A stretch of DNA of 37,745 nucleotides from Candidatus Poribacteria bacterium (GTDB lineage Bacteria; Poribacteria; WGA-4E; PCPOR2b): contig JADFGN010000008.1 in assembly GCA_022567695.1 (NCBI GenBank), forward strand, positions 1-37,745. The letters are read 5' to 3'. Below, piece after piece: positions 32,678 to 34,088 of the stretch. The notes below the pieces were generated by a model. That model did not search any database. It saw nothing but the letters and a program-made list of their open reading frames with translations, and had not been told where the DNA came from. Every line of letters starts with the position of its first letter. Position 1 is the first letter of the stretch. A program made the translations under genes and the position numbers.

Positions 32678-32768
32678 CCCAGGCTTCCTTCCCAATCGGA
32701 GTTATCTGACGGTCAGCGGCGTATATGCATCGATTTCTTCGGTCAAATTATAGGACGGGGAGGACAAC

Positions 32769-33881
32769 ATGTACCGAACTGACGAACCAGACAAAGAACT
32801 TGTCCAGCAAGCCCTTGCCAACTCAATGTGGGCTTTTGAATGTCTTGTCGAACGGTATCAATCGGTTGTTTGCGGTATGGCGTATCATCAACTCGGCAAC
32901 TTCGCCGACGCCCAAGACATCACACAAGATGTGTTTCTGGAAGCGTATCAAAATCTGGATTGTTTGCAACAGCCGGCAAAATTTGCGCCTTGGTTGCGAG
33001 GTATCACGCTCAACCTGTGCCGAATGTGGCGGCGAAGACGGCGCCCTGACGCTCTCTCGCTGGAAGACGAGTTGAATTTGCCGGGTAGCGAACCGACTCC
33101 ACTCGACACGTTAACCGATAAAGAGTTTCGCGATTCGGTGGCTCAGGCAATTGGGGCACTCCCCGAAAACAATCGGCTAGTTATCATCCTTTACTACTTC
33201 AATGAGATGTCGTACAAGGAAATCAGTCAGTTTCTCGATGTCCCCTTGACAACCGTTGAAGGGAGACTACATCGTGCCAAAAGGCAACTACGAAAGGAAA
33301 TGATTGATATGGTAGAGCAGACATTGACTCACCAGAAAATTGAACCCAAAATTCAGACGGAAACTTTGCTAGAATCCGGTCTACATTTCGGACATCAGAC
33401 ATCAAGAGGGAACCCAAAGATGGCAGCCTACATCTTTGCGGAACGAAATGGCATTCAAATTTTCGACCTTAAAAAGACACGGGAAGGGATCAAGAAAGCA
33501 CAGCGCTTTGCTAAAGGAGTTGCTCAAAAAGGCGGAAAGATTCTGTTTATCTGCACCAAGCAACACGCCCAATCGGTCATCGACAAGCAAGCACAGCGGT
33601 GTGAAATGCCATACATAAATGAGCCGTATCAGCGCGGAAAGCTTACAGAGATTGCTCAACAGATTGGTGGGCTTCACGCAGTTGTCATCGTTGATGTTAG
33701 CCGCGAAAGTGCTGCTGTTGACGAGGCACGTGCATTGGGTGTACCGATTATCGGACTTGTAGACAGCGATGGCGACCCATCCCGCGCCGATTATGTAATT
33801 CCAGGCAATGATGATGCGTGCAGAGCGATTGAGTTGGTGTGTTCGCAGATTGCTGATGCAGTTCTTAGCGTTTCGATTTAA
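32769..33881 (+). CDS. ECF sigma factor fused to a ribosomal protein S2 (uS2)-like domain
   Basis: One 370-residue frame joins two unrelated families. Residues ~20-90 are sigma region 2 ([45 protein letters not shown]) and ~118-180 region 4 ([39 protein letters not shown]), an ordinary ECF layout. After a short linker, ~195-366 is plainly bacterial S2: [43 protein letters not shown], then [16 protein letters not shown] and [13 protein letters not shown]. The ~60-residue coiled-coil hairpin that S2 normally inserts is missing at ~289-298, so it is a reduced S2, unlikely to replace the housekeeping protein. GGGAGGA precedes the ATG by 6 nt. No anti-sigma gene is adjacent; the S2 domain may itself be the regulatory part. 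Confidence 0.93.
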
Positions 33882-34038: not shown

Positions 34039-34088
34039 GAATGCAAAACTTGCCCTACCTAAGTTCATGGAGAGCAAGTTTTGCATTC
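34039..34088. repeat. Perfect 15-bp inverted repeat with 20-nt loop
   Basis: GAATGCAAAACTTGC (34039-34053) and its exact complement (34074-34088) flank a 20-nt loop, between the convergent sigma-S2 and DUF5610 genes. There is no T-run on either side. It may act as bidirectional terminator, or be a small mobile palindromic element. The remaining 33882-34140 sequence shows nothing else. Confidence 0.7.

Follow-up and report, generated by a model that had tools for sequence, protein, structure and literature searches.

A sigma factor gene continuing into ribosomal protein S2

The window analysed here, a stretch of 37,745 nucleotides from a Candidatus Poribacteria contig, carries on its forward strand (positions 32769 to 33881) a gene in which an ECF sigma factor is joined in frame to a domain of ribosomal protein S2. 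Its reading frame, recognized as an ORF with Pfam and NCBIfam matches, starts with ATG, ends with TAA and runs through 370 codons without an internal stop, and its ribosome binding site region (GACGGGGAGGACAAC, positions 32752 to 32768, same strand) lies directly 5' of the ATG, with GGGGAGG immediately upstream of it. The initial annotation, made from the letters alone, had described an uninterrupted frame with a good ribosome site, and this description holds.

The sigma half consists of sigma2 and sigma4 only. Region 2 (Pfam Sigma70_r2) covers residues 26-92 (positions 32844 to 33044) and region 4 (Sigma70_r4_2) residues 122-174 (33132 to 33290), both being present also in the AF2 model, while neither sigma1.1 nor sigma3 was found by Pfam, NCBIfam or AF2. 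According to the AF2 secondary structure and the alignment of relatives, sigma4 ends in a helix (residues 160-189, positions 33246 to 33335) that leads nearly straight into the S2 domain, which begins within about seven residues of the helix end. This domain, recognized by Pfam, NCBIfam, AF2 and Foldseek, extends from about residue 196 to the C-terminus (33354 to 33881) and is devoid of the coiled coil. Ribosomal_S2 (PF00318) is the only Pfam family matched by the C-terminal extension, with 187.5 bits against a cut-off of 26.1, and the match falls into two stretches (profile positions 1-97 and 152-214), the coiled coil at profile positions 98-151 being absent. The same part scores 175.8 bits against TIGR01011 (rpsB_bact; NCBIfam cut-off 76.3). 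At such scores chance matches are excluded, and the reading of the gene as an ECF sigma factor fused to a coil-less S2 is confirmed. Pfam found no SnoaL, TPR, WD40 or cysteine-rich extension that would place the protein in ECF41, ECF42, ECF57 or the CorE-like group. An internal ATG (codon 182) follows AAGGA within positions 33286 to 33340, and separate translation of the S2 domain could occur from it.

For the full-length AF2 fold we used sigma rows only, as MAFFT placed S2 rows over sigma in the combined alignments and these were discarded. Block means of the model are mostly above 90 for residues 1-91 and mostly above 80 for residues 111-189, and no contact between sigma and S2 is predicted confidently (pTM 0.46). 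Judging from this model, the link from sigma4 to S2 is short and could transmit a binding event from one half to the other.

The fusion is a single gene, preceded by a TatA gene and followed by a DUF5610 gene, both on the opposite strand, and no anti-sigma gene adjoins it. Adjacent anti-sigma genes are expected for canonical ECF groups only, as the groups with regulatory extensions do without one. Between the convergent genes there is an 18-nt inverted repeat with a 14-nt loop (34039 to 34088), possibly a terminator hairpin, although one with no T run; it is absent from the other loci fetched. A promoter scan performed no better than chance, and gene order around ubiE, a neighbour on the contig, is not conserved in five genomes of the same family. 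The source genome, presumably a metagenome assembly, amounts to 7.3 Mb in 733 contigs, with 91% completeness and 6.7% contamination. A full-length rpsB located directly upstream of tsf, which the initial annotation had proposed to look for, is present in this genome on another contig (G000:C429), and the S2 part of the fusion is therefore an extra, second copy and not the ribosomal one.

Features kept and lost in the S2 half

It had been noted initially that the S2 part keeps the most conserved stretches of the family and lacks the coiled-coil hairpin. Both statements stand, but the losses go further. At the site of the missing coil (residues 289-302, positions 33633 to 33674) a profile gap shows that about 50 residues are absent, and the RWLGG motif (Arg-Trp-Leu-Gly) at the base of the coil is gone with them, as is the otherwise invariant Trp of RRWNPKM (Trp25), together with a few other residues. 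When compared with 110 rpsB sequences, the fusion retains 47 of 55 invariant positions outside the deletion, versus 43 of 126 other positions (p 8.5e-11). Such selective keeping indicates that the S2 fold is under selection and, combined with the separate normal rpsB, makes it likely that this domain was selected for a role other than building 30S subunits, as proposed before. Without its coil the domain is predicted as a complete alpha/beta fold (AF2 mean pLDDT 94.6), and its best Foldseek matches are bacterial uS2 proteins with TM of about 0.9, the E. coli S2-S1 complex 4toi being in the list. Thus, what speaks for uS2 membership is the family cut-off passed, the globular fold and the zinc and S1 residues; what sets the domain apart is the absent hairpin, a location away from rpsB-tsf and the fact that it is not the sole copy.

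The branch leading to the fusion S2 is very long (4.16 substitutions per site versus an rpsB median of 0.14), and its origin thus cannot be placed. A clade uniting it with the rpsB genes of relatives is not rejected (p-AU 0.488), and in this tree test a descent from the lineage's own rpsB would be compatible with the sequences.

The retained residues point to one particular face of the protein. In the E. coli 30S subunit, the uS2 coiled coil touches 16S h35-h37 in the head, while the globular domain touches h26 (PMC10931766). The N-terminus of bS1 docks on the globular domain of S2 at Phe32, His15, Phe16, Asp188, Asn203, Asp205 and Arg208, and a zinc ion is held by His18, Asp188, Asp204 and Asp205 (PMC4288201). 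All nine residues of this S1/zinc face are kept in the fusion (H206, F207, H209, F223, D332, N347, D348, D349 and R352). On the forward strand, HFGH (residues 206-209, positions 33384 to 33395) contains the S1-contacting His206 and Phe207 and the zinc ligand His209; Phe223 (33435 to 33437) is the equivalent of E. coli Phe32, which stacks on the N-terminal helix of S1; Asp332 (33762 to 33764) corresponds to the zinc ligand Asp188; and NDDACR (residues 347-352, 33807 to 33824) includes the S1-contacting Asn347 and Arg352 next to the zinc ligands Asp348 and Asp349. This retention exceeds chance only slightly (p 0.020, or 0.057 without the deleted columns), the residues in question being near-invariant in S2 generally. 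Moreover, they are conserved also in Firmicutes devoid of ribosome-bound S1 (PMC4288201), and so they may serve the fold. We regard the retained face, a feature of the sequence that the initial annotation had overlooked, as suggestive of S1 docking but no proof of it.

The bS1 protein of the same genome (G000:C180) carries LESLEQAYDNSLK...IDIGFKSE. In a hand alignment with the E. coli docking helix, Phe5 is replaced by Leu and Phe9 by Tyr, and the equivalents of Asp39 and Lys43 are kept. At L229:1057-3165, the bS1 of this genome appears to be lengthened at its N-terminus by an acidic stretch of about 130 residues ahead of the S2-docking helix.

Two other uses of the S2 domain have to be weighed here. 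On one hand, the fusion might be a metal-responsive sigma factor resembling CorE or OrbS, in which zinc or another ion in the His/Asp/Asp/Asp pocket acts as the switch. All four E. coli S2 zinc ligands are kept (H209, D332, D348 and D349), and PMC8999054 describes metal-sensing ECF extensions, OrbS being another case. Still, none of these ligands varies among the 110 rpsB sequences compared, so that they may only stabilise the fold, and no metal gene was recognised beside the fusion in the window; we consider such a switch unlikely. On the other hand, S2 might bind the 30S subunit via h26 or draw RNA polymerase towards ribosomes, and the availability of sigma would then report the state of ribosome assembly. 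The globular domain contacting h26 is indeed retained, uS2 sits at RNA polymerase-30S interfaces (PMC6566652), and human mitochondrial uS2 (7pnt_B), which is matched in one stretch with no room for a coil, is a ribosomal protein, so binding via h26 is conceivable. However, the losses comprise the coil gripping the head at h35-h37, the RWLGG motif at the foot of that coil and the invariant Trp, and the normal uS2 of the same genome would be a competitor. Capture on S2-less 30S particles, which was the mechanism suggested initially, is weakened by this loss of the head contact (PMC10931766), even if mitochondrial uS2 takes its place in ribosomes without a coil, and we find the 30S reading as a whole slightly less probable than the metal switch.

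Occurrence of the fusion and its counterparts in related genomes

The same domain order, whose recurrence across related genomes the initial annotation had proposed to test, was found neither in 98 relatives nor in 387 genomes, nor in viral contigs. In a scan of GTDB contigs with patterns specific to this protein, the matches listed were to ordinary rpsB and none was to a second fusion. All evidence for the fusion comes from a single metagenome assembly, and this is the main weakness of the case. Uniqueness to one assembly, with separate genes in all relatives, had been named as a sign of an artefact, and half of the argument applies, the ECF-S2 pair being unique; at the same time no rpsB found resembles the S2 part, and a simple chimeric join therefore explains the fusion poorly. 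An assembly or binning error, by which a fragment of S2 from one molecule was attached to a sigma gene from another, would fit a single MAG of 733 contigs with 6.7% contamination and no second assembly of the fusion. Nevertheless, the S2 segment is at most 52% identical to every one of the 110 aligned rpsB sequences and is itself abnormal, both halves resemble the neighbouring genes in codon-position G+C, the nearby ubiE shares 70-78% identity with its counterparts in genomes of the same family, and other ECF fusions of related genomes recur in independent assemblies. In the light of these facts an artefact seems very improbable, and we take the fusion to be a real, lineage-specific gene of the ECF-with-extension kind, unusual in having a ribosomal protein as the extension. 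In the literature searched there was no description of an ECF-S2 or ECF-SAICAR fusion, and no paper combining ECF, sigma factor and Poribacteria, in agreement with the earlier statement that no description of a sigma-S2 regulator was known.

The ECF genes of related genomes are joined to other housekeeping proteins as well, which had escaped the initial annotation. In seven related genomes an ECF sigma factor is followed by SAICAR synthase, PurC (loci L014:1420-2877, L203:769-2364, L204:829-2355, L217:244-1839, L218:732-2279, L219:660-2168 and L220:821-2323). The PurC halves are mutually 55-94% identical, while the sigma halves form five groups only 19-34% alike, and five dissimilar sigma groups on similar PurC halves speak for five independent fusion events. 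In two cases a pair of genomes has the fusion in common (identity between the sigma halves 89% and 69%), and three assemblies, all of them incomplete (G008, G045 and G079), contain no strong match to PurC apart from the fused copy. ECF fusions to a Pup-ligase-like protein (Dop/PafA-like) were found at L196:58-2040 (G074), L224 (G076:C812), L199 and G003:C607; they show 57% identity between two families (G074 and G076) and appear to be split by a frameshift in G003. Further partners include PheS, the phenylalanyl-tRNA synthetase alpha subunit with its class II core domain (L180:805-2082, G079), a bifunctional nuclease (BFN) domain (L145:1462-2781, in the same genome as the S2 fusion, and L193:961-2184 in G079), a thioredoxin-like domain (L203:2674-3861, G008, adjoining the ECF-PurC gene) and an AAA ATPase (G075). 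The ECF-BFN gene L145 lies on the rpsA contig, about 7 kb downstream of rpsA. The nearest sigma relatives of the S2 fusion end in bifunctional nuclease (L145), TPR, HTH, ankyrin and kelch domains. Altogether, this suggests that ECF sigma factors have repeatedly captured housekeeping proteins as control modules.

One may also argue that a second rpsB copy joined the ECF gene simply by chance, S2 being a stable tail, or the whole product being on its way to loss. This would be in line with the fusion being a singleton, with its very long S2 branch and with the wide range of unrelated proteins joined to ECF genes in this group, as though such joins came about easily. It is harder to reconcile with selectively kept invariant S2 positions, a clean deletion and a complete predicted fold. 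We hold a passive fusion to be rather improbable, if worth keeping in mind.

A possible translation-linked sigma factor and its likeness to known systems

Our preferred reading, to which we would assign a probability of only about 40%, is that of a one-component ECF sigma factor with an S2-derived regulatory module, bS1 docking being its most likely input. Judged by its domains, the sigma2-sigma4 half would direct RNA polymerase to promoters, and the C-terminal half would be a diverged second copy of uS2, with its coil cut out, acting as a regulatory module and no longer as a ribosomal protein. The input would be received by that face of S2 which, on the ribosome, docks the bS1 N-terminus and holds a metal ion. 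Upon disturbed translation initiation or 30S assembly, free bS1 might bind to the S2 domain and alter the activity of sigma via the short sigma4-S2 link. Three points here are our inference: the regulation of sigma by the S2 domain, the role of bS1 as its ligand and which way the activity would change. Since the head-gripping part is deleted while the S1/zinc face is kept, S1 docking or metal binding is favoured over rebuilding of the 30S subunit, with bS1 as the first candidate ligand and zinc as the second. Regulation by conformation or protein binding is known for C-terminal ECF extensions (PMC8999054).

A bolder version, which appears improbable to us at present, is that the fusion senses the state of translation: the S2 domain, remodelled and without its grip on the 30S head, would serve as a decoy that binds free S1, and a dedicated set of promoters would thereby respond directly to how much of the translation machinery is unassembled or idle, the fusion being one of a wider class in this lineage with captured sensors (S2, PurC, PheS and Dop). 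Most built-in sensors described for ECF factors are domains for small molecules or metals, or repeat domains. With a ribosomal protein as the sensor, promoter choice would be coupled to translation without an intermediate. From the PurC and Dop cases it would seem that bacteria have a general way of turning housekeeping proteins into transcription switches, and this lineage-wide pattern of fusions may outweigh the S2 case as a finding.

When compared with bacterial uS2 (rpsB; PF00318, TIGR01011), the fusion shares the globular alpha/beta domain, the HFGHQT, NPKM and PGNDDA motifs and the zinc and S1-contact residues, but it has no coil, RWLGG or Trp25, is fused to sigma, lies away from tsf and is an extra copy. 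Human mitochondrial uS2 (7pnt_B) likewise is matched in one stretch without the coiled-coil insertion, yet it is a structural protein of the ribosome, not joined to a regulator. As in ECF sigma factors with C-terminal extensions (PMC8999054), sigma2 and sigma4 are followed by a soluble C-terminal domain and there is no adjacent anti-sigma gene; the extension here is a ribosomal protein domain, and the section consulted in that source does not name S2 as an extension type. Finally, although ECF-PurC and ECF-Dop recur in several genomes while ECF-S2 does not, and although the captured domains differ, the PurC, Dop, PheS and bifunctional nuclease fusions resemble ECF-S2 in having a housekeeping protein as their C-terminal half.
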